51,565 nt of DNA from Candidatus Sulfotelmatobacter sp. (GTDB taxonomy: Bacteria; Eisenbacteria; RBG-16-71-46), in NCBI GenBank assembly GCA_035498555.1, contig DATKAB010000095.1, positions 1 through 51,565 on the forward strand, given 5' to 3'. How positions within the stretch are numbered: the first letter of the stretch is position 1; every line of letters begins with the position of its first letter. Both the position numbers and the translations under genes were made by a program. This document shows, piece by piece, positions 19,034 to 47,674 of this stretch. The notes below the pieces were generated by a model. That model searched no databases. It worked only from the letters and a program-made list of their open reading frames with translations, and was not told the DNA's origin.

Positions 19034-20167
19034 TCAGTCCATCTGGCGCCGCAGGAACGCCGGCACCTCGAGCGAATCGCTCCGCGACGGCGTCTTGCCC
19101 CAGCGGCTCGGACGCGGCTCCTCGCGCTGCCACTGCGGGTGACGCAGGTCGCTCTCCTCGCCGGGCGCTGCCGCCGCGCGTCCCTTGTCCACCAGTCGCA
19201 GCCGCGGCTCGACCTGGCCGAACCCGGTGGCCACCACGGTGAGCTGCATCTCGCCGTCCATGTTGGGGTCGATGACGGCGCCGAAGATGACGTTGGCATC
19301 CTCGCCGGCCGCCCCCACCACCACACCCGCGGCCTCGTTCACTTCATGAAGCGTCAGATCGCGGCCGCCGGTGATGTTCACCAGCACGCCCTCGGCGCCC
19401 GAGATCGAGACGTCTTCGAGCAGCGGGCTCGACACCGCCGCCTGTGCGGCTTCCACCGCGCGGTTCTGACCGGTCGCGCGCCCGGTGCCCATCAGCGCGT
19501 TGCCGCGGTTCGACATCACCGCCTTGACGTCGGCGAAGTCGAGATTGACGAGGCCCGGCACCGTCACCAGGTCCGAGATGCCCTTGGTGGCCTTGAGCAG
19601 GATCTCGTCGGCGACCGCGAACGAATCGGTGAGCGAGCAGCTCTTGTCCACCACCGCCAGCAGCCGCTCGTTGGGAATCACGATCAGCGTGTCCACCTCG
19701 GCGCGCAGCTCGGCCAGGCCCTCCTCGGCCTGACGCATGCGGCGCCGTCCCTCGAAGATGAAGGGCTTGGTGACCACCGCCACGGTGAGCGCGCCGGTCT
19801 GCTTGGCGATCCGCGCCACCACCGGCGCCGATCCGGTTCCGGTGCCGCCGCCCATGCCGGCGGTGATGAACACCATGTCGCTGTCGGTGAGCGCATCGGC
19901 GATCGCCTGCTCGTCCTCCTCCGCCGCGCGTCTCCCTACCGAAGGGTCGCCCCCGGCGCCGAGCCCTCTCGTGGCGGTGGCGCCGATCTGGATGCGGTGC
20001 GGCGCCAGCGACTGATTGAGGGCCTGAACATCGGTGTTGCCGACGATGAACTCCACGCCGCGCAGGCCGGCGCCGATCATGCGGTTCACGGCGTTGCCGC
20101 CCGCGCCTCCGCAGCCGATGACCTTGAGCTTCGCGGTGGTGGTGCTGTCGAATTCCAGTTCGAACAT
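19034..20167 (-). CDS. ftsZ: Cell division protein FtsZ
   Basis: This is a 377-residue tubulin-like GTPase that polymerises into the Z ring. The start [10 protein letters not shown] is preceded by GGGAG 7 nt away; the frame extends 53 codons upstream without conservation. GTP-binding features are [22 protein letters not shown] and the signature GGGTGTG (106-112). The T7 catalytic loop is [14 protein letters not shown] linker of about 50 residues rich in Arg/Glu/Pro ends in the conserved C-terminal peptide [12 protein letters not shown], which binds FtsA. It follows ftsA by 70 nt. Confidence 0.98.
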
Positions 20168-20237
20168 GGCACGACTCCCTGTGCCCGCCCCCGGTCCTTC
20201 GGACGATCCGAAGTCCGCTGAGGCGCGTTGGGGTGGA

Positions 20238-21470
20238 TCAGAACAGATCGGCGAACCAGCGGCGCAAATCGAATCTCCCTTTCCGTTCGGCCGGACCGCG
20301 ACGCTCGCGGCCCTCGGCGCTCTCACCGCGTGCGGCGTGGAGCACCAGGCCCACGCCGGTGGAGTAACGGGGATCCTCCACGTTGGCGGACAAACCGCCG
20401 AGACCGCGCGGCGCGCCGAGGCGCACCGGCATCTCGAACACCTGCTCCGCCAGCTCCACCACGCCCGGCATCAGCGAGGTGCCGCCGGTGAGCACCACTC
20501 CCCCGCCGAGCAGCTCGGCGAAGTGGTTCTTCTTCACCTCCTTGTTGGCGAGCGCGAAGATCTCCTCCATGCGGGGTTCGACCATCGACGCCAGCACGTG
20601 GCGAGAGATCTCCCGATCGGAGCGCCCGCCCACGCCCGGCACCATCACCATCTCGTCGGCGGCCACCAGCGCCGCGAGGGCCGAGCCGTGCTGGATCTTG
20701 ATCTGCTCGGCCTTGTCGATGGGCGTGCGCAGCCCGATGGCGATGTCGTTGGTCACATTGGCGCCGCCGAACGGAATGATGGCGGTGTGCCGGATCGAGC
20801 CCTCGAAGAACACCGCGACGTCGGTGGTACCGCCGCCAATGTCGAGCAGCACCACCCCGAGGTCGCGCTCGTCGGGCCCGAGCACCGCGTGGCTGGAGGC
20901 CAGCGGCTCCAGCACCAGGTCGCCGACCTTCAAGCCGGCGCGCTGGATCGAGCGACAGATGTTCTTGGCCGAGGTCACCGCGCCGGTGATGATGTGGACC
21001 TCGGCCTCGAGCCTCACCCCGCTCATGCCGACCGGATCCTTGATCCCGTCCTGATCGTCGACGATGAACTCTTGCGGGATCACGTGAATGATCTCGCGAT
21101 CCATCGGGATGGCGATCGCCTTGGCCGCCTCCACGACTCGATCCACGTCGGGTGGCCCGATCTCGTTGTCCTTGCGGGACACCGCGATCACGCCGCGGCT
21201 GTTGATGCTGCGGATGTGGTCGCCGGCGATGCCGGCCGTCACCGCCTTGACCTGAACGCCCGCCATGCGCTCGGCCTCGTCGACCGCGCGCTGAATGCTG
21301 GCGACGGTTTTCTCGAGATCCACCACCACGCCGCGCCGCAGGCCTTCACTCGGGGCGTTGCCGACCCCCACTACGCGCAGCTCCGGACTGCCGTTCTGAT
21401 CCGCGATGATGCAGGAGATCTTCGTGGTGCCGATGTCGAGCCCCACGAACGTCCGCGTCGCCTGTGCCAT
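20238..21470 (-). CDS. ftsA: Cell division protein FtsA
   Basis: This is a 410-residue actin-like ATPase that ties FtsZ to the membrane. The nucleotide motifs are [14 protein letters not shown], the second phosphate loop [16 protein letters not shown], and the adenosine motif [18 protein letters not shown]. The C-terminal amphipathic helix ([12 protein letters not shown]) is the membrane-targeting sequence. The Shine-Dalgarno AGGGAGGTGAT, 6 nt before the ATG, is nearly ideal and the strongest in the cluster, which fits the need for independent high translation at this point. It lies 30 nt after ftsQ. Confidence 0.97.
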
Positions 21471-21500
21471 GCCGCCATCACCTCCCTGTGACGAAGACTG

Positions 21501-22304
21501 TCAGCTGGTTCGCGCCGGCGGCCCATGGGCGGCCGGGCGCACGATCACCTGATTGTCGAAACGAAGATCCACTTCCTGCGCGAGCACGCGACGCTGCTGG
21601 AGATCGGCCAGCACCACGCGCAGAGCCGACAGCGAGCGCGTGTCGGGCGGCCACGCGGGGGACAGCACGCGCGTCCCCGATAGCAGCGTGAGCGCGGTGG
21701 ATCGGGGATCGGAGACATCGAGCTCGGATACCTGGCCGCCGAGCTGCAGCTCGCGCGCGCCGAGCGCCCGCACCCAGGCCAGCCCTCGCTCGATCGCCGG
21801 CGAATGGATCTGGGTGCCCGGCGACAGCCGCTGGAGCGAGGGCCCCACCAGCATCGGCACGTCGGCGACCACGCCGTCGGCGAGCGGCGGCAGCAGCACG
21901 CCCGCGGTGTCCAGCTCCCAGGGTTCGCCGTGCTGCACCAGCAGCACCGGAGTCCGCTCCTCGATGCTCAGCGTCACGCCGTGCGGGAACCGGCGCGTGA
22001 CGCGCGCGGCCGAGATACGCGGCTGGAGCAGGAGCCGCTGGCGGACCAGCGCCGGATCCACCGACCACAGGTCCTGGCCGCGAGCCAGGCCCGAGCCGCT
22101 CACCACCTCGGCGGCCGACAGATAGCGCAGGCCTTCGACGCGGATATCGCGCGCGTCGAACAGCCGCTGCTGCAGCGACGGCGGCAGGTGCGCGATCGCG
22201 GTCACGACCGCGATTGCCGCGAGCCCCAGCCCCAAGCGACGCAGGCGCCCCCGCCGGCGTCGCGGCGCATCCGTGCGCAGCGCCCTTCCCTGGTACAGGC
22301 TCAT
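21501..22304 (-). CDS. ftsQ: Cell division protein FtsQ
   Basis: This is a 267-residue bitopic protein: a basic cytoplasmic lead (RRRRGRLRRLG), one TM helix (about 25-41) and a periplasmic POTRA domain starting IRVEGLRYLSAAEVVSGSG. It continues with VTRRFPHGVTLSIEER, typical of FtsQ/DivIB. The divisome role is to link FtsL/FtsB and FtsW/FtsI to the early ring. The start overlaps the murC stop by 4 nt (ATGA). murB and ddl, which often separate murC and ftsQ, are missing here. Confidence 0.9.
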   Translation of the reverse strand: MSLYQGRALRTDAPRRRRGRLRRLGLGLAAIAVVTAIAHLPPSLQQRLFDARDIRVEGLRYLSAAEVVSGSGLARGQDLWSVDPALVRQRLLLQPRISAARVTRRFPHGVTLSIEERTPVLLVQHGEPWELDTAGVLLPPLADGVVADVPMLVGPSLQRLSPGTQIHSPAIERGLAWVRALGARELQLGGQVSELDVSDPRSTALTLLSGTRVLSPAWPPDTRSLSALRVVLADLQQRRVLAQEVDLRFDNQVIVRPAAHGPPARTS

Positions 22305-23698
22305 CCTCGCGCACCCTCCGGTGCGCTCACCTCACGCCTCAGACGGCTCAGGATCTCGTCGCCGGTCTTCCAGACGTCGCCGGCGCCGAGGGTGATCACG
22401 GTATCCCCGCCGCGGGCCTCGGCGGCAATGGCCGCCGCCGCGGTGGAGGGATCGGAAGCATACTCCACCTCGTGGTATCCATGCTCGTGCGCGCTCTCGA
22501 CCAGGGATCGGCCGGTGGCCCCGGGGATCGGCGCCTCGCCGGCCGGATAGACGTCCAGCACCCAGACCCGGTCGGCGTCGCGGAAACACGTGCCGAATTC
22601 CTCGCGCAGCGCGGCGGTCCGCGAGTAACGATGCGGCTGGAAGAGGACCAGCACCCGACCGCCCAGCCCGCGGGCCGCGGCCAGGGTGGCCGCGATCTCG
22701 GTGGGATGGTGGCCGTAGTCGTCCACCACCCGAATGCCGCCGGCCTCGCCGCGCGTTTCGAAACGCCGTGACACTCCACGAAATCCGGCCAGCGCTTCCT
22801 GAATCTGCTCGAAGGCAACCTCGATCTCGAGCCCCACCGCCACGGCGGCCAGCGCGTTCAGAACATTGTGCTTCCCGGGAAGCTGGAGCTCGATCGGGCC
22901 GAGTTCGCGGCCTCCCGCCTGCGCCACGAAGCGCGAGCCGTGCGGGATCAGCTCGACGCGCACCGCGCGCACCTCGGCCTCGGCGCCCGTCCCGTACAGC
23001 ACCACGCGCTTGGTGACGCGCGGCAGGATCTCGCGGACCTGCTCGTCGTCCCCGCACAGCACGCTCACGCCGTAGAACGGAACGCGGTTGGCAAAGTACA
23101 CGAACGCCTGGCGCACTGCGTCGAGATCGGGATAGTGATCGAGGTGCTCCCGGTCGATGTTGGTGACGACACAGACCGCCGGGTTCAGCCGCAGGAACGA
23201 TCCATCACTCTCGTCGGCCTCGGCCACCAGAAACGAGCCGTGACCCAGACGCGCGTTGGTGCCGAGCGCGTGCAGCCGACCTCCGACCACGATGGTCGGG
23301 TCGAGGCCGCCTCGTGCCAGCACCGCGGCGATCATCGAGGTGGTGGTGGTCTTGCCGTGAGAGCCTCCCACCGCCACGCCGTACTTCATGCGCATCAGCT
23401 CGGCCAGCATCTCGGCGCGACCGATCACCGGAATGCCGGCCTCGCGCGCCGCCATGAGCTCGGGATTGTCGGGCTTGACCGCGCTCGAATAGACCACCAC
23501 CTGAGCCCCGGAAACGTTGGAGGGATGGTGTCCGGGAAACACCCGCCCGCCGAGGCGCAACAAACGATCGGTGACGTCGCTGACCTTGAGGTCGCTGCCG
23601 GTCACCTGATAGCCCATGGTGAGCAGCACCTCGGCGATGCCCGACATGCCGGCGCCGCCGATGCCGATGAAATGAATGCGGTGAGTGCGCCCGTACAT
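22301..23698 (-). CDS. murC: UDP-N-acetylmuramate--L-alanine ligase MurC
   Basis: This is a 465-residue Mur ligase that adds L-Ala to UDP-MurNAc with ATP hydrolysis. The Rossmann start IHFIGIGGAGMSGIAEVL is typical of MurC, and the ATP loop is VGGSHGKTTTTSM. Later motifs are FLVAEADESDGSF and the C-domain DYGHHPTEIAATL, with HRYSRT. The start shares one base with the murG stop. The ftsQ start overlaps the 3' end. Confidence 0.98.
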   Translation of the reverse strand: MYGRTHRIHFIGIGGAGMSGIAEVLLTMGYQVTGSDLKVSDVTDRLLRLGGRVFPGHHPSNVSGAQVVVYSSAVKPDNPELMAAREAGIPVIGRAEMLAELMRMKYGVAVGGSHGKTTTTSMIAAVLARGGLDPTIVVGGRLHALGTNARLGHGSFLVAEADESDGSFLRLNPAVCVVTNIDREHLDHYPDLDAVRQAFVYFANRVPFYGVSVLCGDDEQVREILPRVTKRVVLYGTGAEAEVRAVRVELIPHGSRFVAQAGGRELGPIELQLPGKHNVLNALAAVAVGLEIEVAFEQIQEALAGFRGVSRRFETRGEAGGIRVVDDYGHHPTEIAATLAAARGLGGRVLVLFQPHRYSRTAALREEFGTCFRDADRVWVLDVYPAGEAPIPGATGRSLVESAHEHGYHEVEYASDPSTAAAAIAAEARGGDTVITLGAGDVWKTGDEILSRLRREVSAPEGARG

Positions 23699-24840
23699 CA
23701 GCGCCCTCCGCCTTCGCCGAGCGGGGCCGGTTGCTGCGCCTTGCGCCGCCCCTCGCCCCAGCGCTGCAGGCTGCGCGCGATCCGCTCGGCGGCGTCGGGC
23801 CGCGCGAAGGTGCGCGCGTTGGCCGACAGGCGCGACAGCGCCTGGCGATCGGCGAGCAGGTGCGCGATCTCTTTCGCCAGGCGCTCTCCGGTCAGCTCGC
23901 GGTCGAGGATCATGGCGGCGGCGCCGCGATCCACCAGGTTGGCCGCGTTGATGACCTGATGATTGTGCGCGGCGTGCGGGTAAGGGACGAGAATCGCCGG
24001 CGTGCCGCAGACCGCGATCTCGGCGAGCGTCATGGCACCCGAGCGGCAGACCACCAGATCGGCGGCCGCATAAGCCATGTGGATGCGTTGCAGGAACGGC
24101 AGCACCTTCGCCGGCAACTGCTCATCGCGCACCACGCCGGTCGCCCAATCGAAATCGTCGCGCCCGGTCTGCAGGATGAACTGGACGTCGACGCGGCCCT
24201 TCAGGCGCCGCATGGCGTCGAGCGCGGCCTCGTTGATGCGATGAGCGCCACGGCTGCCCCCGAACACGAACACGGTGGGCTTGCCCGCGGTGAGCCCGAA
24301 TTCGGCGATGGCGGTGGCGCGATCGCCGCTCAGGATGTGGCCGCGCACCGGATTTCCCGAGACCTTGAGGTTGTCCTTGCGTGCGAAATAGGAGCGCGCC
24401 TCGACGAACGAGAGATGCACTTCGTCGGCGAGCCGCGCCAGCCAGCGATTGGCGAGACCCGGCACGCTGTTCTGCTCCTGCAGGAGCAGCGGCTTTCGCA
24501 GCAACCAGGCGGCCAGCGACACCGGCCCGCTCACGTAGCCGCCGGTGCCGAGCACCACGTTCGGTCGCTCCGCCAACATCACCACGAGCGCCTGTGGAAC
24601 CGCGACCAGGTTGGCGAGCAGCGCGAACGGCCAGCGCCACCACGCACCGCGCGGGAAGCCACGGGTCAGGATGTAGCGGATCCGGAAGCCGGCCTGCGGC
24701 ACCACCGAGGCTTCCAGCCCGCGGCGGCTGCCCACGAACACGATTTCGTCGGTCGGACGCAGGCGCTTCAACTCCTCGGCCACCGCGATGCCCGGATAGA
24801 CGTGGCCGCCGGTGCCGCCGCCCGAGATCATGGCCTTCAT
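23698..24840 (-). CDS. murG: Lipid II synthase MurG (UDP-GlcNAc transferase)
   Basis: This is a 380-residue GT28 enzyme that adds GlcNAc to lipid I on the inner face of the cytoplasmic membrane. The N-domain G loop is SGGGTGGHVYPGIAVAEEL. The central VLGTGGYVSGPVSLAAWLL and LQEQNSVPGLANRWL segments are conserved, and the C-domain donor site includes VFGGSRGAHRINEAAL and CRSGAMTLAEIAVCGTPAIL. The start ATG overlaps the ftsW stop by 4 nt. The longer frame upstream is inside ftsW and is not conserved. Confidence 0.98.
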   Translation of the reverse strand: MKAMISGGGTGGHVYPGIAVAEELKRLRPTDEIVFVGSRRGLEASVVPQAGFRIRYILTRGFPRGAWWRWPFALLANLVAVPQALVVMLAERPNVVLGTGGYVSGPVSLAAWLLRKPLLLQEQNSVPGLANRWLARLADEVHLSFVEARSYFARKDNLKVSGNPVRGHILSGDRATAIAEFGLTAGKPTVFVFGGSRGAHRINEAALDAMRRLKGRVDVQFILQTGRDDFDWATGVVRDEQLPAKVLPFLQRIHMAYAAADLVVCRSGAMTLAEIAVCGTPAILVPYPHAAHNHQVINAANLVDRGAAAMILDRELTGERLAKEIAHLLADRQALSRLSANARTFARPDAAERIARSLQRWGEGRRKAQQPAPLGEGGGR

Positions 24841-25973
24841 GAAGCGCCTCGCGACCAGCGCTGCGCCGCGAGCGCGGCTTCGGTCTGGTTGAGCACGCTG
24901 ATTCGATGCAGCAAACCAGCCGCGGCCATGTTGGCGAGCAGCGCGGAGCCGCCGTACGACACGAACGGCAGCGGCAGCCCGGTGGTCGGGAAGATGCCGG
25001 TCGCCACCGCCAGATTGACGATCGCGTAGAGCCCGAGTTGCAGCGTGAGCCCGCCGGCCAGCAGCGCCGCGAACGGATCGTGGGTGCGCGCCGCGACCCG
25101 CAGCCCGCGCCACACCAGCAGCCCCAGCAGCCCCAGCAGGATGGTGGCGCCGACGAAGCCCAGTTCCTCGGCGAGGATCGAGAAGATGAAGTCGGTGTGC
25201 GCCTCGGGGAGGAACAGATACTTCTGGAGCCCGGCGCCGAGACCGCGGCCGAAGATCCCGCCCGAACCGATCGCGATCAGCGACTGATCGAGCTGCCAGC
25301 CCGCGCCATGCGTGTCGAGCTCACCGCCGAACACGAATTTCGCGAAGGTCGTCACGCGTCCCATCATGTACGGGTGCGTCTTGAGCGCCACCATCACGCC
25401 CAGCGCGCCCACGCCGACCGGAACCGCGAGCGAGCGCAGCGGCGCGCCCGCCAGGAACAGCATCAGGAAGCCGGTGAGGCCGAGCAGCCCGGCGCTGCTC
25501 AGATTCGGCTGCAACAGGATCAGGCCGCTCAGACCCGCGACGATCGCGAGCGGCGGCAGCACGCCGCGCATGAGTCCGAGCTCGGACGGCGGCCGCCGCT
25601 TGAGCCACCAGGCCAGGAAGATCACCGCCGCCAGCCGCCCGAGATCGGTGGGCTGGAGCGTCAGGAAGCCGAGCCGAAGCCAGCGCGTGGCGCCGTTCGA
25701 CATGTGCCCGGCCGCCACCACCACCGCGAGCAGAGAGACCGCGACCGCCAGCAGCGCCGGCGCGGCCTGCTCGAGGCGGCGGAGATCCGCCTTCGCCGCG
25801 ATCCCGAGCACCGCCAGCCCCAGCACGGTGCGAAGCAGCTGGCGGGTGAAGTAGTGGCTCGGGTCCTGGAATCGGGTGAGGCCGAGGATCGCGCTCGAGG
25901 AGTAGACCATGACGAGTCCGACCGCGGTGAGCAGCAGCGGCAGGATGATCAGCCAGCGATCGCCGCGGCTCAC
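24837..25973 (-). CDS. ftsW: Peptidoglycan polymerase FtsW (SEDS family)
   Basis: This is a 378-residue protein with about 10 TM helices that polymerises lipid II at the septum together with FtsI. SEDS features include VMVYSSSAILGL in TM1, LQPTDLGRLAAVIFLAW, and the C-terminal region ILAEELGFVGATILL with PLPFVSYGGSALLANMAAAG. GTG start; GTGA overlap with murD upstream and ATGA overlap with murG downstream. Confidence 0.96.
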   Translation of the reverse strand: MSRGDRWLIILPLLLTAVGLVMVYSSSAILGLTRFQDPSHYFTRQLLRTVLGLAVLGIAAKADLRRLEQAAPALLAVAVSLLAVVVAAGHMSNGATRWLRLGFLTLQPTDLGRLAAVIFLAWWLKRRPPSELGLMRGVLPPLAIVAGLSGLILLQPNLSSAGLLGLTGFLMLFLAGAPLRSLAVPVGVGALGVMVALKTHPYMMGRVTTFAKFVFGGELDTHGAGWQLDQSLIAIGSGGIFGRGLGAGLQKYLFLPEAHTDFIFSILAEELGFVGATILLGLLGLLVWRGLRVAARTHDPFAALLAGGLTLQLGLYAIVNLAVATGIFPTTGLPLPFVSYGGSALLANMAAAGLLHRISVLNQTEAALAAQRWSRGAS

Positions 25974-27349
25974 GCGTGGGCCTCTCTGAGCCGCAATCGC
26001 GCGACTTCGTCCCGGAAGCGCTGGCCGCGATCCTCGTAGTCCTTGAACATGTCGAACGAAGCACAGCCGGGCGAGAGCAGCACCACGCCCTCACCCTCCG
26101 GCGCGCGCCGAGCGGCGGCGAAGGCCTGGTCCACCGCTTCCTCGAGGCTCGCGGCGCGCGACATCGGCAGACCGTTCCAGGCGCCTGCGATCCTGGCCGC
26201 GCCTTCGCCGATCAGCACCACGTGCCGCGTGCGGCGGCCGACCCGAGCGCGTGCCGGCGCGAAATCCTGGCCCTTGTCGCGACCGCCGGCGATCAGAACC
26301 ACGGGGTGCGCGAAGCTCTCGAGCGCCACTTCCATCGAGCCGACGTTGGTGGCCTTCGAGTCGTTGACGAACGACACGCCCTCGATCGTGCCCACGCTCT
26401 CGAGTCGGTGCGCGAGCCCGGCGTAGCGACGAAGCACCGAGCGCAAGGCTTCGGGAGCGATCTCGAGCGGCAGCGTCGCCGCCAGCGCGGCCAGGGCGTT
26501 GGAGAGGTTGTGCGGGCCGGGAAGCCGCAGCTCCGCGGCCGGCATCAGCGGCTCCATTCCCCCGCGCCAGGCCAGCTGAATCTCGCCGAGCGCCGCGAAC
26601 GCGCCCTGCTCGACCGGCGCGGTGCGGGAGAAGAACAGCGGCGTGCCCGCTCCGGTGCGGCGCCGCATCACCTCGGGATCGTCGGAGTTCCACACCCCGT
26701 AGTCGCCTTCTTCCTGGCGCGCGAACAGCCGCTGCTTGGTCGCGCCGTAGCTCGCGAAATCGCCGTGCCGGTCGGCGTGGTCGGGTGTCAGGTTCAGCCA
26801 GACCGCGACGAAGGGCTTGAGCCGATCCACCGATTCCAGCTGGAAGGAGGACACTTCCACCACCAGCAGACCGCTGGCGCTCACCGACTCGGCCACTTCG
26901 CAGATCGCGCGCCCGATGTTGCCGCACACCGCCACCTCGCGCCCGCCCCCGGCGAGCAGGGCGCCGATCAGGTCGGTGGTGGTGCTCTTGCCGTTGGTGC
27001 CGGTGACGCACACCAGCGGCGCGCGCGCGGCCAGGAAACCGAGTTCGAGCTCGGAGAGCACCGGCACGCCCCGAGCGCGCGCCCCTTCGGCGATCGGATG
27101 GGTCAACGGAATGCCCGGGCTCCAAATCACGACGTCGCGGCCTTCGAGCAGACTCGGGTCGTCGCGTCCCAGCTGAAGATCGACGCCGCTGAGCGATTCG
27201 CGCGTGAGTCCTGCCGGCGACTGGCGGTCGCACAGCCGCACGTCGAGCCCGTGCCGGGCGAGGAGGCGGGCGGCGGCGAGTCCGGAGCGCGCGGCGCCTA
27301 CCACCAGCGGGTGGCGCCCGGGAAGCGGATGGAGCGGGTCGATGGTCAC
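25970..27349 (-). CDS. murD: UDP-N-acetylmuramoyl-L-alanine--D-glutamate ligase MurD
   Basis: This is a 459-residue Mur ligase. The N-domain starts LVVGAARSGLAAARLLARHG. The ATP loop is VTGTNGKSTTTDLIGALL, and MurD-type central motifs include VVEVSSFQLESVDRLKP and LNLTPDHADRHGDFASY. The C-domain has FVNDSKATNVGSMEVALESF and IAGGRDKGQDF. GTG start overlapping the mraY stop (GTGA); the 3' end overlaps ftsW. Confidence 0.98.
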   Translation of the reverse strand: MTIDPLHPLPGRHPLVVGAARSGLAAARLLARHGLDVRLCDRQSPAGLTRESLSGVDLQLGRDDPSLLEGRDVVIWSPGIPLTHPIAEGARARGVPVLSELELGFLAARAPLVCVTGTNGKSTTTDLIGALLAGGGREVAVCGNIGRAICEVAESVSASGLLVVEVSSFQLESVDRLKPFVAVWLNLTPDHADRHGDFASYGATKQRLFARQEEGDYGVWNSDDPEVMRRRTGAGTPLFFSRTAPVEQGAFAALGEIQLAWRGGMEPLMPAAELRLPGPHNLSNALAALAATLPLEIAPEALRSVLRRYAGLAHRLESVGTIEGVSFVNDSKATNVGSMEVALESFAHPVVLIAGGRDKGQDFAPARARVGRRTRHVVLIGEGAARIAGAWNGLPMSRAASLEEAVDQAFAAARRAPEGEGVVLLSPGCASFDMFKDYEDRGQRFRDEVARLRLREAHA

Positions 27350-28437
27350 TGGAGTTTGAAGGTCGAGAGCGAGAGCAGGGCGAGCAGCGCGCCGACGATG
27401 TAGAAGCGCAGCACCACCCTCGACTCGGCCCAGCCCGACAGCTCGAAATGATGATGGAGGGGCGACATTCGAAACACCCGCTTGCCGGTGAGCTTGAACG
27501 AGACCACCTGGATCATCACCGACAGCGCTTCGGCCACGAACACCCCGCCCACCAGCAGCAGCCAGAATTCACGCTTGATGAGCACGGCCACGGTTCCGAG
27601 GGCGCCGCCCAGCGAGAGCGACCCGGTGTCTCCCATGAACACGTCGGCCGGATGACAGTTGTACCAGAGGAAGCCCAGCGCCGCACCGAGCACCGCGGCG
27701 CAGAACACGGTCAGCTCGCCGCCGTAGCTCAGATGCGCGATGTTCAGGTACTCGCTGAACTTGGCGTGGCCGGAGAGATAGCACATGCCGGCGAACGTCA
27801 GCGCGGCGATCGCCACCAGCCCCGAGGCCAGTCCGTCCAGGCCGTCGGTGAGGTTCACGGCGTTCGAGGAGCCGGTGATCACCAGGATGACGAACGGGAC
27901 GAACAGCCAGCCGAAATCCACGAACCTCAGCTTCAGGAACGGCACCTGAGTGACGGTCGGCGACAGGCCCGGCTCCGGCCACACCAGCAGCACGATCCCG
28001 ATCGCGAGCCCGAGCGACACCTGTCCGACCAGCTTCCAGCGGCCGAGCAGCCCGTGCTTCATGCCCTTGACCACGCGCAGCCAGTCGTCGAGGAATCCGA
28101 TGCCGCCGAGCCAGACGGTGGCGAGCATCGCGAGCCACACCGGGCGGGAGTGCAGGTTGCCCCACAGCAGCGTCGGCACCACGATCGCCGACACGATCAG
28201 GACTCCGCCCATGGTCGGGGTGCCGGCCTTGGCGAGATGGGCCTGCGGGCCTTCGGCGCGGATCTTCTGCCCGAGCTTGACGCGCCGCAGCCACTCGATC
28301 ATCGGCGGGCCCAGCACGAAGCACAGCAGCAGCGCGGTGACCGCGGCGTAGGCCGAGCGGAAGGTGATGTAACGGAAGACATTCAGGACGCTCAGGCCGT
28401 GGATGGTGTGCAGCGGATAGACGTACTCGTAGAACAC
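27346..28437 (-). CDS. mraY: Phospho-N-acetylmuramoyl-pentapeptide transferase MraY
   Basis: This is a 363-residue membrane enzyme with about 10 TM helices that makes lipid I from UDP-MurNAc-pentapeptide and undecaprenyl phosphate. Diagnostic motifs are KAGTPTMGGVLIV, the Asp pair in GFLDDWLRVVKGMKHGL, NLTDGLDGLASGLV, FMGDTGSLSLGGALG, and the His loop SPLHHHFELSGW. GTG start one base after the murF stop; the 3' end overlaps murD. Confidence 0.98.
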   Translation of the reverse strand: MFYEYVYPLHTIHGLSVLNVFRYITFRSAYAAVTALLLCFVLGPPMIEWLRRVKLGQKIRAEGPQAHLAKAGTPTMGGVLIVSAIVVPTLLWGNLHSRPVWLAMLATVWLGGIGFLDDWLRVVKGMKHGLLGRWKLVGQVSLGLAIGIVLLVWPEPGLSPTVTQVPFLKLRFVDFGWLFVPFVILVITGSSNAVNLTDGLDGLASGLVAIAALTFAGMCYLSGHAKFSEYLNIAHLSYGGELTVFCAAVLGAALGFLWYNCHPADVFMGDTGSLSLGGALGTVAVLIKREFWLLLVGGVFVAEALSVMIQVVSFKLTGKRVFRMSPLHHHFELSGWAESRVVLRFYIVGALLALLSLSTFKLQ

Positions 28438-29836: not shown

Positions 29837-31392
29837 CACGCCGGCCGTCTCCGCCGCAACAATTCACGCGCGACCTCGCGATCGTCGAACGGCAGCACCT
29901 GGCTCCCGATGGTCTGCGTGGTCTCGTGCCCCTTGCCGGCGATCAGCACCAGGTCGCCCTCCCGCGCCGAGTCGAGCGCGCGGGCGATCGCCTGCCTTCG
30001 ATCCAGCTCGACCGTGATCGGTCGCGCCGGTCCGGTCGCGCCGCTCAGGATCTCGCGGGCGATCGCCGCCGGATCCTCGCTGCGGGGATTGTCGTTGGTG
30101 ATCCACACCTGATCGGCGGCGCGCGAGGCCACCGCTCCCATCAGCGGCCGCTTGCCCCGATCGCGATCGCCGCCGCAGCCGAACACCAGCAACAGGCGGC
30201 CGCGCGAGTGTTCGCGCGCCGCGTGGAGCGCGCGCTCGAGCGCGTCGGGCGTGTGGGCGTAGTCCACGACCACCAGGAACTGCTGCCCGGCGTCCACTTT
30301 CTCCAGCCGACCCGGCACGGCCGGCATTCTCATCAGCCCCTGCTCGATCGTATCGAGCGGCAGTCCGAACGAAAGGGCGGCCAGATACGCGGCCGCGGCG
30401 TTGAACGCGTTGTGCTGCCCGAGCAGCGGGAGCCGGAAGGTCCGCTCGCCGCCGGCGGCGGAGTTCCCGAGGTCGAATCGCTTCTTCTCGCGCAAGTCTT
30501 TGGGTACCTCGACGTCGAACTGCAAGTGGAGCCCGTCAGGTTGTGACTGGATTCGCTCGATGCTCAAGTCGAATTTCATGGCCGGCGGCGCATCGGACAG
30601 GTCCGTGCCGAAGGTGAGCACGCGAGAGCCCGCGGCCTTCGCGGCCGCGATCACCCTCGCGCCGGCGGGATCGTCGCCGTTGACCACCGCGGTCACGCGC
30701 TTGCCGTTCGGCCCATTGCGACCGTCGAACAGCATCAGCTTGGCGTCGAGGTAGTTCTCCATGGTGCCGTGATAGTCAAGGTGATCCTGCGTGAGGTTGG
30801 TGAACACGCAGGTGTCGGCCTCCAGTCCCCAGGTGCGTCTCAAGGCGAGCGAGTGGCTCGATACCTCCATCGCCACCGCCTTCACCCCGCGTTGGCGCAT
30901 TTCGGAGAGCAGCGACTGCAGCTCGGGCGCCTCGGGCGTGGTGAACGAGATCTCGCGTGACTGGTTGGCGAAGCGCGCACCGGTGGTGCCGATGACTCCG
31001 GCATTCCAGCCGGCGGCGTGAAACATGGATTCGAGCATCCAGGTCGTCGTGGTCTTGCCATTGGTGCCGGTGATCGCGACGATTCGAAGCCCCCGCGACG
31101 GATGGCCGTAGAAGTTCTCGGCCGCCTGCGCGAGCGCCAGGCGCGGCTCGCGCACTTCGACGTGCGCCGCGCCCTCGACCACCACGCCGGGAGCCGAGAC
31201 CACCGCCACCGCTCCGGCGCGGATCGCGTCGTTCACGAATCGGGCGCCGTCGGCCTTCAAGCCGGAGAGCGCGAAGAACGCGTCGCCCTTGCGGACGCGG
31301 CGAGAGTCGTAGGCCAGGCCCGAAATCGCCAGCGAGGAATCGCCACGCCGCCCGACCACCTCGAGCCCCTCGAGCAGATCGTTCAAGTTCAC
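29836..31392 (-). CDS. murE: UDP-MurNAc-L-Ala-D-Glu ligase MurE (meso-DAP type)
   Basis: This is a 518-residue Mur ligase starting from GTG in a GTGA overlap with ftsI; the frame runs much further upstream inside ftsI but is not conserved. The N-domain has YDSRRVRKGDAFFAL. The ATP loop is ITGTNGKTTTTWMLESM, followed by TTGARF, MEVSSHSLALRRT and NLTQDHLDYHG. The C-domain has VVDYAHTPDALERAL, VFGCGGDRDRGKRPLMG and DNPRSEDP. The DNPR motif is known to select meso-diaminopimelate over lysine, so the peptidoglycan is predicted to be DAP-type. Confidence 0.97.
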   Translation of the reverse strand: MNLNDLLEGLEVVGRRGDSSLAISGLAYDSRRVRKGDAFFALSGLKADGARFVNDAIRAGAVAVVSAPGVVVEGAAHVEVREPRLALAQAAENFYGHPSRGLRIVAITGTNGKTTTTWMLESMFHAAGWNAGVIGTTGARFANQSREISFTTPEAPELQSLLSEMRQRGVKAVAMEVSSHSLALRRTWGLEADTCVFTNLTQDHLDYHGTMENYLDAKLMLFDGRNGPNGKRVTAVVNGDDPAGARVIAAAKAAGSRVLTFGTDLSDAPPAMKFDLSIERIQSQPDGLHLQFDVEVPKDLREKKRFDLGNSAAGGERTFRLPLLGQHNAFNAAAAYLAALSFGLPLDTIEQGLMRMPAVPGRLEKVDAGQQFLVVVDYAHTPDALERALHAAREHSRGRLLLVFGCGGDRDRGKRPLMGAVASRAADQVWITNDNPRSEDPAAIAREILSGATGPARPITVELDRRQAIARALDSAREGDLVLIAGKGHETTQTIGSQVLPFDDREVARELLRRRRPA

Positions 31393-33533
31393 GGCCCCGG
31401 AGCCCGGAGCGCGGCGCCGCTGGCCAGCGCGTTGAGCCCATCGCCCTCGGCGTGCGCCACGCCCGGCTCGCACCACAGCCAGGCGGTACGGTCGGCCGGC
31501 AGGGGGGCGCCGGCCGGCGGGCTTTGCCGGACCACCAGCCCGCCGCCCTCGATGTGCGAGCGCATGCCGAGCAGCGCCAGCCGTCGCAACGCCTCGCGCA
31601 CCGCGACGCCGGCGAGTTCCGGCATGAGTCGGGTGGCGGAATCCTGGGGCGCCGCGAGCCACACCGCGATCCGCGAACCACGCTCGGTGGCCTGACCGGC
31701 CGCGGGCTCCTGCGCGAGCGCGCGCGGGCCCTCGCCTTCGAAGCGCGCGTGCAGGCCGAACGACGACAGGCGGCGCTCGACCTCGGCAGGAGGGAGCAGC
31801 CGCACGTCCGGCACCGTCACCGGCGCCGGCGCAGGCGGGCGATACGCGATGTCGGCGGTGCTCGGCTCGAACGGCCCGTCGGGCAAGCGCATCAGGTCGA
31901 GCATGGCCTCGCGAAAGACCGGCGCCGCCACCTCGCCGCCGTAGTAGTGCCTGCCGTGCGGTTCGTCGATCACCACGACCCCCACCATCCGCGGCCGGTC
32001 CGCGGGCACGAAGCCCACGAAGGAGGAAAGATACATCCCGCGGCCGTAGGTGCCGACGGTGGCGTCGTACTTCTGAGCCGTGCCGGTCTTGCCGGCAATC
32101 TCCAGCCCCGGAATCCGCGCGGCCTTGGCGGTGCCGCTGTCCACCACGGCGCACAGCATCTCGCGCAGGATCGAGACGGTGTGCTCGCTGAACACGCGCC
32201 GCACCGCGTGCGGCTGGTACTGGCGAGTGACGCGGTTGTTCTGATCGCGCAGCTCGCGCACCAGCATCGGCTCCATCAGCACGCCTCCATTCGCGACCGC
32301 CGCGTAGGCCAGCGCGAGCTGGAGCGGCGTCACCGCCACCTCGTGACCGATCGCGATGGTGGGACACGAGCGGGCCGACCAAGAAGCCGGCGAGCGCAGC
32401 CGGCCCGCCGCCTCGCCGGGGAACTCGATGCCGGTGATCTCGCCGAATCCGAGATCGGTGGCGAACCGATAGAGGCGATCCGGGCCGACCAGCAACCCGA
32501 GCCGACCCATGACGATGTTGCTCGACCAGCGCACCGCGTCGCGGAAGCTGAAGCTCGGCGCCCGGTGTACGTCGTGGAAGAGCGCCCCGGGCGCCAGCAG
32601 CGCGGTGCCCGAAGCCGAGGCCTCGAACACCTGATCGGGCTGAGCGAGACCCTCTTCGAGGGCCGCCCCCGCCACGACGAGCTTGAAGGTCGAGCCCGGC
32701 TCGTACTGATCGGTCACCGGCCAGTTGCGCTCGCGACCGGGCGGCAGATGCGGCACGCTCACCGCCGCCAGGATCTCGCCGGTGTTGGGATCGAGGAACA
32801 GAGCGAAGCCGCGTTCCGCGCGCAGCGTGTCCACCGCGCGGGCCAGATGAGACTCGACGATCGACTGAAGATCCGCGTCGAGGCTCAACACCACCTGCTG
32901 CCCGTCCTCGGCTTCTCGGCGCGAGCCGCGCGGGAGCGCGTGCGCCTGGCCTCGGCCGTCACGAAACAGCGTGGTCCATCCGGCCCGGCCGCGCAGCGTC
33001 TGATCGAGCTGCAACTCGAGCCCGTCGACGCCAATGTCGTCGGTGTCGGTTCGCCCGAGGATCTCACGCGCGGCGCTGCCGAGCAGATACTCGCGCCGCG
33101 TTTCGAGCGACAGATAGATTCCGGGGAACCCGCCATCGGCGATCTTCTGGCCGACACCCGGCTCGACCTGGCGCGCGACCACCAGATACGGTCTTCCCGA
33201 CAGGAACTCCGACTCGAGTTTGCGTTGCTGGAGACCGAGCGCGATGGCGAGCGCACGGGCGGTGCCGCGCGGATCCTTCATCTCGCGTGGCGCGGCCGCG
33301 ACCGTGTAGGTCTCGAGATCGTGGGCGAGCGCGCGCCCGTGGCGGTCGAGCAGATCGCCGCGCTGCGGCCGCACCAGCACCCGTTGTTCATGGTTGCGCT
33401 CGGCCCGCGCCACGTAGTCGGCGTGCTGCACGATCTGCAACCAGGCCACTCGCAGCCACAATCCCACCAGGCCGAGAAGAAGACCGGCCGCAGCCACCAG
33501 CACCCGACTCTTGCGCATGTCCGTGTGGGCCAA
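31389..33533 (-). CDS. ftsI: Septal transpeptidase FtsI / PBP with two PASTA domains
   Basis: This is a 714-residue class B penicillin-binding protein. An N-terminal TM anchor (LVAAAGLLLGLVGLWLRV) is followed by a dimerisation domain and the transpeptidase domain with S281-TFK, S337-S-N339 and K482-TGT. Two C-terminal PASTA domains (from about residue 570, starting VTVPDVRLLPPAEVERRL, and from about 640) bring it closer to SpoVD/PBP2x than to the enteric FtsI. I chose the TTG at 33533 because AGGGAGGGAGA lies just before it; a GTG 9 codons upstream and an ATG 5 codons downstream are alternatives. It works with FtsW and FtsQ/L at the septum. Confidence 0.94.
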   Translation of the reverse strand: MAHTDMRKSRVLVAAAGLLLGLVGLWLRVAWLQIVQHADYVARAERNHEQRVLVRPQRGDLLDRHGRALAHDLETYTVAAAPREMKDPRGTARALAIALGLQQRKLESEFLSGRPYLVVARQVEPGVGQKIADGGFPGIYLSLETRREYLLGSAAREILGRTDTDDIGVDGLELQLDQTLRGRAGWTTLFRDGRGQAHALPRGSRREAEDGQQVVLSLDADLQSIVESHLARAVDTLRAERGFALFLDPNTGEILAAVSVPHLPPGRERNWPVTDQYEPGSTFKLVVAGAALEEGLAQPDQVFEASASGTALLAPGALFHDVHRAPSFSFRDAVRWSSNIVMGRLGLLVGPDRLYRFATDLGFGEITGIEFPGEAAGRLRSPASWSARSCPTIAIGHEVAVTPLQLALAYAAVANGGVLMEPMLVRELRDQNNRVTRQYQPHAVRRVFSEHTVSILREMLCAVVDSGTAKAARIPGLEIAGKTGTAQKYDATVGTYGRGMYLSSFVGFVPADRPRMVGVVVIDEPHGRHYYGGEVAAPVFREAMLDLMRLPDGPFEPSTADIAYRPPAPAPVTVPDVRLLPPAEVERRLSSFGLHARFEGEGPRALAQEPAAGQATERGSRIAVWLAAPQDSATRLMPELAGVAVREALRRLALLGMRSHIEGGGLVVRQSPPAGAPLPADRTAWLWCEPGVAHAEGDGLNALASGAALRAPGP

Positions 33534-33644
33534 TTCTCCCTCCCTGGAACGGCGATTCACGCGGATCGCCGGGCCAGCACTCGCGCGGTGCGGTGGTGCG
33601 GCCGGTCACACCGGTCGCCCGATCGTATCAGGCTCGATTCATGG

Positions 33645-34079
33645 TCAGTTCCCGTTGCGGCCGCGCGCCGTGGCTTCCGGCACCAGCGCGCGAGAGAAGC
33701 GATCCACCCAGGCCAGAGCGACGGCGCGGCTCGGGCCGGAGGAGGACTCGTCGGAAGACAGATAGTCCGCGGGCAGCACCACCACCTGACGCGCATCGGC
33801 CGGCGCGAGTCCGAGCTCGCTCGCCATCGGCGACAGCGCGGAACGCGTGGCGCGCCGCTGCAGCTGGGCGCTGACGTAGGCCTCGCGCGCCTCCACCGCC
33901 GACAGCGAATGACGCGTGCGCTCGAGGCGCAGGCTCAGCTCGGTCACGCGCGCGTTCTGCCACACCTCGGCGAGCAGCAAGGCCAGCAATCCGAACGCGG
34001 CCAGCCAGACATCGGCGCGGAAAGAGCGCGACTCGTTCGCGTTCCACACCACACGGGGACGATGGGGCTTCGGGCTCAT
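33645..34079 (-). CDS. ftsL: FtsL-like cell division protein
   Basis: This is a 144-residue bitopic protein: a short basic cytoplasmic lead, a TM helix (VWLAAFGLLALLLAEVW, about 24-40), then a coiled-coil heptad region (VTELSLRLERTRHSLSAVEA) and LSPMASELGLAPADARQVVVLP. That order is characteristic of FtsL, which recruits FtsI/FtsW. Position between rsmH and ftsI is the standard ftsL slot. The C-terminal 45 residues extend beyond the usual FtsL. The start overlaps the rsmH stop (ATGA). Sequence similarity in this family is always weak, so the call rests on topology and position. Confidence 0.82.
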   Translation of the reverse strand: MSPKPHRPRVVWNANESRSFRADVWLAAFGLLALLLAEVWQNARVTELSLRLERTRHSLSAVEAREAYVSAQLQRRATRSALSPMASELGLAPADARQVVVLPADYLSSDESSSGPSRAVALAWVDRFSRALVPEATARGRNGN

Positions 34080-34993
34080 GTGGACTTCCTCCGAAACGCT
34101 CGCAACCGCGCGCTCCGAGCGCGAGGATTGCGACCGACCTCCTCCTGCGAGGGTGTCACCACCCCTCGATGCAACGGTTCCCAGGGCGACTCCGCCACCG
34201 ACGCCGGCGGCCGCCGCCTCGAAACTACCGAACGCTCACCGCGCAGCGCGTTCTTCACGCGCCGGTCCTCGCCCGAGTGATAGGCGATCGTCACCACCAC
34301 GCCGCCGGCGCGCACGGCGCGCGGCAGCCACTCGAGCGCCGCCTCGAGATCCTCGGCTTCGCCGTTCACCCAGATGCGCAGCGCCTGGTACACCTGCGCG
34401 AGCCGGCGCGGATGCGCGTGGCCGCCGGACAGTCGATGCACCAGCGCCGTCAGCTCGGTGGTGGTGCCGAGCCAGCCGGCCTTGGCCTCGCGCACCATCG
34501 CGCGCGCGAGCCGCGTCGCGTCTCGAATGTCGCCGTGCTCGCGAAGCGCGCGCGCCAGCGTCGCGGGCTCCGCGTCACGGATCTCCTCCCAGGCGGGCCG
34601 TCCCCGGGCGGGGTCGAGGCGCAGGTCGAGAGGGGCATCGAAGCGGAATCCGATCCCGCGCGCGGGGTCGTCGAGCTGGCGGGACGAAAGCCCGAGGTCG
34701 AACAAGGCCCCGGCCAGCAATTCGCCGCCCGCCTCGCGATGCGCGACCGGAAGCTCGTGGAACGCGGCGCGCGCCAGGGTCACCCGCGCTCCGAATCGCG
34801 CCAGCCGGTGGCCGGCGACTTCGAGGGACTGAGGATCGCGATCGGTGCCGAGCAGCCGAGCCCCGGATTCGGCTTCGAGAAGGGCTTCCGCGTGGCCGCC
34901 GTCGCCGAGCGTCGCGTCGAGATAGAGCCCCGGGCCGCCGCGAATCCAGCGCAGGACTTCCTCGACGAGCACCGGCTCATGACGCGAACTCAC
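34076..34993 (-). CDS. rsmH: 16S rRNA (cytosine(1402)-N(4))-methyltransferase RsmH (MraW)
   Basis: This is a 305-residue SAM-dependent methyltransferase. It starts GTG-AGT-TCG giving SSRHEPVLVEEVLRWI, which is the conserved HxPVL opening. The SAM loop is LDATLGDGGHAEALLE; further motifs are LFDLGLSSRQLDDPARGIGF, QVYQALRIWVNGE and VTIAYHSGEDRRVKNAL. It overlaps the STAS gene by 17 nt, more than the usual 4, and ftsL follows with an ATGA overlap. Confidence 0.96.
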   Translation of the reverse strand: MSSRHEPVLVEEVLRWIRGGPGLYLDATLGDGGHAEALLEAESGARLLGTDRDPQSLEVAGHRLARFGARVTLARAAFHELPVAHREAGGELLAGALFDLGLSSRQLDDPARGIGFRFDAPLDLRLDPARGRPAWEEIRDAEPATLARALREHGDIRDATRLARAMVREAKAGWLGTTTELTALVHRLSGGHAHPRRLAQVYQALRIWVNGEAEDLEAALEWLPRAVRAGGVVVTIAYHSGEDRRVKNALRGERSVVSRRRPPASVAESPWEPLHRGVVTPSQEEVGRNPRARSARLRAFRRKST

Positions 34994-35435
34994 GACCGGA
35001 CTCGATCGCACCGGCCGCTCCGAGCAGCTCGTCGGCCGAGGGCCAGCAGCGCAGCGCGCCGTCACAGCCCGCGAGCCGGAAGAGGTCGCGCAGGTAGTGC
35101 GACAGCCCGCAGATCACGAAGCTCCCGGCGTGGGTCTCGAATCGCTCGAGCGAGGCCACCAGCGCGGGCAACAGCCGGTAGTCGACGTGGCGGAGCTGAG
35201 AGCAGTCGATGATCAACTGGCTCGCCCCGCGCGCCGCGAGATCCTCGAGCGCCGACTCGAGCCGTCGGATCGCCACCGCGTCGAGCCAGCCCCGCAGCGC
35301 GAGCAACGCGACCCGACCGCCACCGCGCTCGAGCAGCTCGAGCCTCGCCGTCGCTCCATGTCGGCCGTGGGTCAGCTCCAGATTGAGCGCCAGCGCGCGA
35401 CGGGATTCCCGGGCGACTTCGGGCAGAAGGGTCAT
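34977..35435 (-). CDS. STAS-domain protein inserted between mraZ and rsmH
   Basis: This is a 152-residue soluble protein. A lead of about 45 residues is followed by a STAS fold (about 45-135): VALLALRGWLDAVAIRRLES, then ASQLIIDCSQLRHVDYRLLP and LVASLERFETHAGSFVICG. STAS proteins such as SpoIIAA are anti-sigma antagonists switched by phosphorylation of Ser/Thr in a DSSG-type loop. Here the equivalent is VDYRLLP, so the canonical phospho-acceptor right after the Asp is Tyr. Regulation by an RsbW-type kinase is therefore doubtful. It overlaps mraZ upstream (ATGA) and rsmH downstream. A role in division or wall synthesis is inference from position only. Confidence 0.85.
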   Translation of the reverse strand: MTLLPEVARESRRALALNLELTHGRHGATARLELLERGGGRVALLALRGWLDAVAIRRLESALEDLAARGASQLIIDCSQLRHVDYRLLPALVASLERFETHAGSFVICGLSHYLRDLFRLAGCDGALRCWPSADELLGAAGAIESGREFAS

Positions 35436-35923
35436 GGCTGCTTCCCTCCCAGCACTTCTCCTGCGAGCGTTTCGTATTCGCCGTTCGCGGCCTGGACCAG
35501 GGCATCCAATCGCTCCTGGTTCCAGATCTCGATGCGATCAACCTGGCCGAGCAGGACGGCTTCCTTGCCGAGGCCTGCCCGGCCCATCAGTGCCGGCGGG
35601 ATGGCGATGCGTCCCTGCGCGTCCACCGACACCTTGGTTGCGTCCATCAGGAACGCGCGCGCGAACGCGCGGCCCCGACGGTCGCCCATGGGAATCTGGC
35701 GCAGCCGCTCCTCCACGCGCCGCCATTCTTCCGGCGCGTAGAGAGCCAGGCACCCTTCGAATCCCGACACCAGAAAGAACGTGTCCGCTCCGCCCTTTTT
35801 GGCGGAAGCGGAGCGACGCATGGTGGCAGGTACGCTGATGCGACCCTTGTGATCGATCGCGTAGGTCTGAGTGCCGTAGAACGACGCCAAGCTGCGCCCG
35901 TTTCGCTGGAGTTCATTTCCCAT
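35432..35923 (-). CDS. mraZ: Transcriptional regulator MraZ
   Basis: This is a 163-residue protein with the two AbrB-like half-domains of MraZ: YAIDHKGRISVPATMRR near residue 21 and VSVDAQGRIAIPPALMGRAG near residue 100. MraZ forms an oligomeric ring and binds repeats upstream of its own gene, regulating the dcw operon. The first gene of the cluster, it is preceded by a clear promoter and an operator array that includes its own start codon. It is slightly longer than the usual 140-150 residues. Confidence 0.97.
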   Translation of the reverse strand: MGNELQRNGRSLASFYGTQTYAIDHKGRISVPATMRRSASAKKGGADTFFLVSGFEGCLALYAPEEWRRVEERLRQIPMGDRRGRAFARAFLMDATKVSVDAQGRIAIPPALMGRAGLGKEAVLLGQVDRIEIWNQERLDALVQAANGEYETLAGEVLGGKQP

Positions 35924-35963
35924 TTACTGCCACGGACCACCACCTTTCCCCACAATTCCCCAC
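35914..35963 (-). promoter_or_regulatory. MraZ operator: five repeats with 10-nt period
   Basis: On the minus strand five 10-nt units follow each other from 35963: GTGGGGAATT, GTGGGGAAAG, GTGGTGGTCC, GTGGCAGTAA, ATGGGAAATG. This is the known MraZ pattern TGGGN with 5-nt spacers; units 1, 2 and 5 match it fully and units 3 and 4 are degenerate. Unit 5 contains the mraZ start codon. The array lies just downstream of the predicted transcription start (about 35968), so bound MraZ should repress. Confidence 0.85.
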
Positions 35964-36108: not shown

Positions 36109-37665
36109 CTATCGAGGGCTTCGCGAACCGAGCGTGTCGGCGCAGCTCCAATCGATGCGATAAAAGGTGTAGATCGTGGTCTCGGGACGCATGATTCCGA
36201 GCCCGTCGATCCTCGCGCTGCCGAGCCGCGTGAGGCACGGGGCGTAGCGGCTGCGCCGGCGCAGGTCGTCATCGGCGAGCGCGCGATCCACCAGGAACGA
36301 CGGTTTCGCGAACGCCGAGAACGCCAGGTCCGCCACCGCGGCCTCGGGCGTTTCTCGCTCGAGGATCGGCACCATCGGCGGAGTGACCAGCCCGCCCAGG
36401 TCGACGACCGGCAGATCGCTGTAGTAGGCAATCGCGCCGATGTCGGGCGTGGCGATCGAGGATCCGGGCGGTGCCACGCCGTGGAACCATTTCCCCCACT
36501 GGATCAGGCTCGCGTGCAATCCGGCGGTGAACGACCGCACGTGCGGCACGACGCTCTGGCGGTAGACGAGGGCGTTCTGCACCAGCACGATCGCGGTGAC
36601 GATCGCCGCCAGCGCCGTGGCGCGCCCGCGGCGCGCGGGCTGCGGCGGATCGCCGCACCACCACAGCTCGGCGGTGCGCCACGCCAGCCAGGCCAGCACG
36701 GGCAACAGCGGCAGCAGGTAGCGCGAGATCACCGGAACGCCCCGCGCCACGTACAGGACCGGCACCAGCGCGATCCACACCCAGGGAAGCAGCCGTTGCG
36801 CCAGCACCTGGCGCGGCCACAGCTTTCGCCCGCCGAACAGCAGCGCCAGCACCAGGAGCAGCGCGAGCGCGCCGTCGGTCGAGCCGATGATCTTCGCCTG
36901 CCTCACCAGGTTGTCGACCGGGATCCCGGCCGAGGCCGACCCCGCCGCCTTGGCCGACAGCGTCTGCGGCCAGAAGGTGCCGAAGTAGAGGCGCGCGAAC
37001 AGCAGCCAGCCGCCGTAGATGAGAAGCGGCGGTAACGAGCCGAACACCAGGCGCCGCAGCCCGGCGCGATTCTCGGTGTCGGCCATCAGGAAGATGCCCC
37101 ACAGCCCGAGCAGGAACACCGCTTCGGGACGTGTCAGCGCGGCGATCGCCCACAGCGCGCCGGTGCGCACCGGGCGCGCGCCCCACTGCTGGCCTTCGGT
37201 GAACGCCACGAAGCCGCCCAGCACCAGGGCGACCGCGAGCGGTGTCTCCATTCCCGAAAGGGACCAGCGCAGCATCCAGGCGTTCGCCGACCACGCCAGC
37301 GTGCCGAGCGCGCGCAGCCCGGGAGTCGCGACGGTACGCCTCATGAGCTGGAGGAACAGCATGATCGAGAGGAGCGTCGAGATCCCGCCCATCCACTTGG
37401 CGGCCGCCACCCCATCGATACCGAGCGCCATGGCGTCGGCGAGCAGCGCCACCCACAGCGGGCTGGTGCAGCCGTAGATCCGCTCGCCGGGATTGAACAC
37501 CAGCCCCTGCCCACGCGAGAGATGCTGCGCATAGCGCAGATGGATGAACGTGTCGTCGGTGAGATATCCGCGCAACGGCCACATCAACACCAGCGCGAGC
37601 GCCAGCGAGAGGATGAGCGCGAGTTTCTCGACGCGAGTGAAGGGAACCGCGGCCGTCGGGCTCAT
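36109..37665 (-). CDS. GT-C family membrane glycosyltransferase
   Basis: This is a 518-residue protein with about 11 TM helices. After TM1 the acidic motif LTDDTFIHLRYAQHLSRGQG and the following FNPGERIYGCTSPLWV are characteristic of a GT-C group related to arabinofuranosyl- and mannosyltransferases that use polyprenyl-phosphate sugars at the outer face of the membrane. A C-terminal soluble part (from about residue 400) includes SSIATPDIGAIAYYSDLPVV. The ATG overlaps the stop of the next GT4 gene (ATGA). It is the last gene of the glycan operon, directly before the dcw promoter. The DPM1-like enzyme upstream could supply its donor. Confidence 0.85.
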   Translation of the reverse strand: MSPTAAVPFTRVEKLALILSLALALVLMWPLRGYLTDDTFIHLRYAQHLSRGQGLVFNPGERIYGCTSPLWVALLADAMALGIDGVAAAKWMGGISTLLSIMLFLQLMRRTVATPGLRALGTLAWSANAWMLRWSLSGMETPLAVALVLGGFVAFTEGQQWGARPVRTGALWAIAALTRPEAVFLLGLWGIFLMADTENRAGLRRLVFGSLPPLLIYGGWLLFARLYFGTFWPQTLSAKAAGSASAGIPVDNLVRQAKIIGSTDGALALLLVLALLFGGRKLWPRQVLAQRLLPWVWIALVPVLYVARGVPVISRYLLPLLPVLAWLAWRTAELWWCGDPPQPARRGRATALAAIVTAIVLVQNALVYRQSVVPHVRSFTAGLHASLIQWGKWFHGVAPPGSSIATPDIGAIAYYSDLPVVDLGGLVTPPMVPILERETPEAAVADLAFSAFAKPSFLVDRALADDDLRRRSRYAPCLTRLGSARIDGLGIMRPETTIYTFYRIDWSCADTLGSRSPR

Positions 37666-41142: not shown

Positions 41143-41147
41143 ACCGG

Positions 41148-43361: not shown

Positions 43362-43365
43362 GCGA

Positions 43366-44082: not shown

Positions 44083-44105
44083 TCGATCTCCTCTCTCCCG
44101 CCTGT

Positions 44106-47664: not shown

Positions 47665-47674
47665 GCGGGATGGG

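Follow-up and report, generated by a model that had tools for sequence, protein, structure and literature searches.

The locus lies in a 51,565-nt stretch of DNA from Candidatus Sulfotelmatobacter sp. (contig DATKAB010000095.1), hereafter the window, and is read from the minus strand. The mraZ gene (35432..35923; TIGR00242, 111.4 bits) is followed by a gene with an ATG start (35435-34977) which, by its open reading frame and Pfam matches, encodes a STAS-domain protein of 152 amino acids, and then by rsmH (34076..34993; TIGR00006, 208.5 bits). An earlier note on this DNA had claimed a STAS gene between mraZ and rsmH, and the present analysis confirms it. The mraZ stop and the STAS start share 4 nt in the tetranucleotide ATGA, while the stretch GTGAGTTCGCGTCATGA contains both the TGA of the STAS gene and the likely GTG start of rsmH at 34993 (the mechanically called rsmH frame starts at 35065), which gives a STAS-rsmH overlap of 17 nt. 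Among the first 30 relatives, the mraZ-STAS junction measured between -11 and +12 nt in 27 of the 28 measurable cases (L021 and L032 lie outside this count), with overlaps mostly of 4 nt or 1 nt, and the 17-nt STAS-rsmH overlap was found in 19 of 20 relatives from the window's own family.

Few bacterial operons are as well studied or as conserved as the dcw cluster. In the window it continues on the same strand downstream of rsmH with an ftsL-like gene (33645..34079), assigned from its position and from a match to NF053549 that lies below the cut-off (24.8 bits against 55), an ftsI-like gene (31389..33560) and, after it, a murE-like frame (29836-32382), the last two recognized from their translations by eye. 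The otherwise ordinary remainder comprises mraY, murD, ftsW, murG, murC, ftsA and ftsZ (19034..28437, minus strand), so that the STAS gene is the one addition to a dcw cluster of standard content. Directly upstream of mraZ we found four TGG repeats with a 10-nt period (35924..35962, minus strand), the kind of repeat that MraZ binds; at least four such repeats occurred in 1 of 2,000 random 200-nt pieces of the window. Because these repeats are a likely MraZ operator, the operon that holds the STAS gene is probably controlled by MraZ. None of the scanned window proteins was identified as a kinase or phosphatase, and neither Rfam (at gathering cut-offs) nor PADLOC returned a match. The region upstream of mraZ (36109-51241) is devoted to surface polysaccharide, with glycosyltransferases, an acetyltransferase, an asparagine synthase and a flippase-like gene. 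Opposite ftsI-rsmH, on the plus strand (31452-34280), lies an antisense open frame of 942 aa that, at this G+C, is probably spurious.

The STAS protein passed the cut-offs of both PF13466 (47.4 bits, cut-off 29.2) and PF01740 (43.1 bits, cut-off 22.6), with STAS_2 as its best Pfam model. It scored below the cut-offs of the SpoIIAA/RsbV-type families TIGR00377 (37.1 bits against 53.45) and TIGR02886 (23.2 bits against 114.75) and of the MlaB model NF033618 (16.9 bits against 90). We found no NCBIfam model dedicated to the STAS proteins of this slot, which we call dcw-STAS; at E ≤ 0.001, 19 of 21 members of profile A7 matched the broad TIGR00377 and 16 also TIGR02886. By sequence, the nearest relative is of the SpoIIAA/RsbV type (1auz, E 1.4e-7).

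Structures were predicted with AlphaFold2 for the window protein and for a Myxococcus relative, each model being built on four aligned sequences only. Both adopted the STAS fold, with a mean pLDDT of 75 for the window protein (about 90 for residues 41-120) and of 79.8 for the Myxococcus protein. The nearest solved structure was that of SpoIIAA in complex with its kinase (1til_B; Foldseek E 3.2e-7). In the VIA-align comparison, which covers the folds ranked by Foldseek, 1til_B superimposed on the STAS model with Z 14.9 over 115 residues at 2.2 Å, followed by RsbS (6jhk_B; Z 14.8, 13% identity) and the E. coli MlaB chain 6xgz_B (Z 11.2). Fold likeness of this sort carries no information on function. 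RsbS, the STAS scaffold of the stressosome, is phosphorylated on Ser; the dcw-STAS protein shares its fold but differs from it in its gene neighbours, with no RsbR/RsbT-like gene among the scanned window proteins.

The protein has a conserved loop, H83-V-D85-Y86-R87-L-L. Tyr86 (codon 35178-35180, minus strand) aligns with the phospho-serine of SpoIIAA, which we take to be Ser58, and residues 83-92 contain neither Ser nor Thr. In both models helix 2 is predicted to begin at the tyrosine of this site. We aligned 102 distinct mraZ-linked STAS sequences, leaving out a duplicate row of the window, with 34 STAS sequences whose genes lie at other places, either in these genomes or in further ones. 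L083 was left out of this outside set, since in genome G043 it is the gene linked to mraZ, on a contig that ends ahead of rsmH. The dcw set carries at the phospho-site Tyr in 82 sequences, Phe in 14, His in 2, and Ser, Arg, Leu and Gly in one each. The outside set, whose members were retrieved by their similarity to the same profiles and hence do not form a random STAS sample, carries Ser in 32, Thr in 1 and Tyr in 1, the sole Tyr belonging to L180, by eye a sulphate-transporter-like sequence. In sum, 96 of the 102 dcw sequences and 1 of the 34 others have Tyr or Phe at the site. The same contrast holds at His83 (92/102 versus 7/34) and Arg87 (78/102 versus 0/34), and Tyr114 is present in 91 of the 102 and rare in the outside set. 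Down-weighting of near-copies, to about 48 effective sequences, still gave fractions of 0.90 for Tyr plus Phe and 0.83 for His83. These counts, together with the scores under the TIGR00377 and TIGR02886 cut-offs, support the earlier view that the protein is not a classical anti-anti-sigma factor; a conserved Ser elsewhere in the loop, which would have spoken against that view, was looked for and is absent from the 102 dcw sequences.

By family code, Tyr or Phe formed the majority in 28 of 31 codes of the 102-sequence set, and two lineages added later carry Tyr (G475) and Val (G110). As judged from the alignment, a signature H-x-[DN]-[YF]-R plus Tyr114 is conserved in dcw-STAS; His83, Arg87 and Tyr114, which complete it, map to the face with which SpoIIAA docks its kinase. 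The exceptions are a Ser in G007, an Arg in the truncated copy of G004, and His, Leu, Gly or Val in single lineages. The first two of these belong to the window's own family: L024 (G007) has the Ser at the phospho-site, and L025 (G004) is a truncated copy of 117 aa in which the motif is broken. Decay, reversion or assembly error are possible origins of these copies. The window's genome also holds, at L001 (G000:C103), a Ser-bearing STAS gene directly after an HATPase_c_2 gene, likely a classical partner-switching pair and an internal contrast to dcw-STAS.

To describe the distribution of the gene, we surveyed 47 genomes of the window's phylum, which fall into 11 families of one class. The slot is occupied in all 44 assessable genomes: 43 have mraZ, STAS and rsmH in this order on one strand, and G043 has mraZ-STAS followed by the contig end. 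The remaining three could not be assessed, G025 and G041 because rsmH was not matched in them and G040 because its rsmH is cut and lacks the upstream part. Tyr or Phe stands at the site in 41 of the 44 (Ser in G007, Arg in the truncated copy of G004, Leu in G043).

Outside the phylum, where all our counts are lower bounds, 18 members of a sample of 290 genomes across bacteria matched profile A1 at E ≤ 1e-13, 12 of them as mraZ-STAS-rsmH and 6 as STAS genes located elsewhere. A second sample of 327 genomes added the slot in G110, G475, G492 and G508. Among the 152 lineages G047-G198, for which one genome per phylum is inferred, 11 carry dcw-STAS (G047, G052, G070, G074, G103, G110, G115, G138, G176, G178 and G186; the phylum of G074 was taken as Myxococcota). 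In the phylum of G176 all 10 genomes have the slot, an eleventh locus (L160) being a second, unrelated match. Within Myxococcota, 95 of 146 sampled genomes matched profile A7 at E ≤ 1e-10, and the 58 matches examined divided into 49 with mraZ-STAS-rsmH, 3 with STAS-rsmH and no mraZ, and 6 with STAS elsewhere. The arrangement is present in Myxococcus sp. RHSTA-1-4, Pyxidicoccus fallax DSM 14698 and Citreicoccus inhibens M34. The possibility that the gene was confined to a single genome can therefore be set aside, since the slot recurs across the phylum and in other lineages.

Recurrence in 33 family codes, with Tyr or Phe as the main residue in 29 of them, shows that occupation of the slot is not due to chance; by its common strand and its position across lineages, the STAS gene qualifies as a dcw gene. 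At the same time, mraZ was found in 236 and rsmH in 280 of the 290 genomes, most of them with no STAS gene at these thresholds, so neither gene needs STAS. A long mraZ-rsmH interval is not specific either: among 20 loci with such intervals (L097-L116), chosen by eye among the matches listed in the interval survey, 3 carry STAS (L103, L104, L106), which adds to the 12 slots detected with profile A1, and 17 gave no STAS match. One of these intervals (L100:609-866, in G113) contains a frame that by eye resembles a MerR-type helix-turn-helix protein, and other frames lie within the intervals of L097, L098, L105 and L114.

We built a tree from 43 dcw-STAS proteins and 25 STAS proteins encoded elsewhere, with the motif columns removed. 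The dcw label changed 4 times on this tree compared to a mean of 20.4 in shuffled labels, none of 500 shuffles being as low. A single clade of all dcw sequences was not rejected (p-AU 0.514); with few columns and weak deep branches, a single origin is permitted, though unproven. We then estimated dN/dS in 13 pairs of related species and obtained 0.026-0.337 for STAS, 0.128-0.341 for rsmH and, where present, 0.009-0.288 for mraZ, with STAS lower than rsmH in 11 of the 13 pairs. Purifying selection on the STAS gene is strong.

Three species of one Myxococcota genus (G400, G429 and G433) have STAS directly before rsmH and no mraZ; PF02381 had no match anywhere in the three genomes, of which G400 is a single contig. 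A fourth species of the genus (G371, L204) has mraZ-STAS-rsmH. Three TGG repeats precede mraZ in G371, and chains of 1, 1 and 2 repeats precede STAS in L201-L203, the loci of the mraZ-less species. The dN/dS of STAS after the loss of mraZ was 0.026, 0.051 and 0.064. As the gene is kept next to rsmH and under purifying selection without mraZ, we rejected MraZ as an obligate partner.

We tentatively favor a reading in which the dcw-STAS proteins form a distinct single-domain family and a regular component of the dcw cluster, retained in several bacterial lineages, and act as a phosphorylation-independent adaptor with one fixed partner, probably encoded in the same operon. A kinase of the SpoIIAB/RsbW type would be unable to switch off such a protein via the replaced serine, and the former kinase-docking face (H83, Y86, R87, Y114) would have been rebuilt to hold the fixed partner. 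That partner may be encoded downstream on the same mRNA, RsmH being the first to consider, then FtsL/FtsI or another divisome protein, and MraZ, by autoregulating the operon, would set the dose of the STAS protein. RsmH comes first because it is the one neighbor kept upon the loss of mraZ; rsmH adjacency partly defined the set, so adjacency alone cannot name it. The earlier suggestion of a constitutive, phospho-independent partner fits this reading, whereas its companion idea of a link between signalling and division finds no kinase or phosphatase gene among the scanned window proteins, and nothing positive came to light for the anti-sigma or Mla partners proposed there.

The alternative that survives best, although we consider it rather unlikely, is that dcw-STAS is a constitutively active protein of the anti-anti-sigma type which, not being phosphorylatable, docks permanently to an RsbW/SpoIIAB-like GHKL kinase, with expression of the operon titrating the kinase. 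Its best sequence and fold matches are indeed RsbV and SpoIIAA, which are likewise single STAS domains, and the available sections of PMC10120452 describe a Ser-to-Ala form of SypA that is active though the kinase is poised to inhibit it. An attempt to rule out RsbW by absence failed: all 47 genomes of the window's phylum encode HATPase_c_2 proteins (RsbW-type ATPases), which keeps a kinase partner in consideration. However, dcw-STAS departs from SpoIIAA/RsbV by having Tyr/Phe for the phospho-serine and by lying in the dcw cluster, with no kinase gene among the scanned window proteins, and the site keeps a bulky aromatic residue and not Ala or Gly. Asp22 of SypA and its SpoIIAA/RsbV equivalents are used in kinase binding, according to the same sections of PMC10120452; the residue aligned with this Asp is Asp52 in the window protein, but Asp is found there in only 31 of the 102 dcw sequences.

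A role as co-regulator of MraZ at the dcw promoter, either as anti-repressor or as partner of the repressor, appears improbable. It would be in keeping with mraZ as the overlapping upstream neighbor and with the likely MraZ operator repeats before the operon, but the three species that lack PF02381 and the repeats have kept STAS under purifying selection. Slightly less probable still is a phospho-switch that works through Tyr86 or another residue in place of Ser. Tyr is the commonest residue at the site, yet Phe replaces it in 14 of the 102 sequences, across several families, which indicates that the hydroxyl is not needed, and the loop offers no other conserved Ser or Thr; we therefore judged Tyr phosphorylation unlikely. 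That the protein is an MlaB-like subunit of a lipid-transport ABC complex, placed in the dcw cluster by chance, we regard as highly improbable: MlaB, from the lipid asymmetry ABC system, shares with it the fold class and the STAS_2 domain, but the NF033618 score is far under the cut-off and no Mla gene occurs among the 24 Pfam-scanned window proteins. Least credible of all is a hitch-hiking paralogue with no function in division, which would suit the truncated copy in G004 and the altered motif in G007 but not the low dN/dS, the presence in every assessable genome of the phylum or the retention after mraZ loss.

The dcw-STAS gene seems to be undescribed so far. A search of the full-text literature, whose coverage leaves subscription papers and preprints outside, found no description of a STAS gene placed between mraZ and rsmH; in the available part of a review of STAS-only proteins (PMC8256260) the terms 'mraZ' and 'division' are absent, and the available part of a study of dcw gene order (PMC8871954) covers 17 genes and names no STAS gene. 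In the accessible portions of PMC8256260 and PMC10120452, SypA and other non-canonical STAS-only proteins resemble dcw-STAS in having a proposed partner that is not the kinase of a sigma factor. Unlike dcw-STAS, though, SypA, BtrV and RbaV are described in these portions as keeping the serine and being phospho-switched.

Returning to the adaptor reading, a wider version of it, which we put forward with less confidence than its core, is that dcw-STAS has belonged to the dcw cluster since early on and been overlooked there, a fixed aromatic docking site having replaced the phospho-switch. The protein would then be a permanent adaptor that ties either ribosome modification by RsmH or divisome assembly to the output of the operon, universal in one phylum, patchy in many others, and retained even where the operon has lost its repressor. 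The family is a natural one without the phospho-serine, in which docking is open to study apart from the switch. Every assessable genome of one phylum has the extra dcw gene, and so do tractable Myxococcus relatives, which makes the question of what dcw-STAS binds directly testable.
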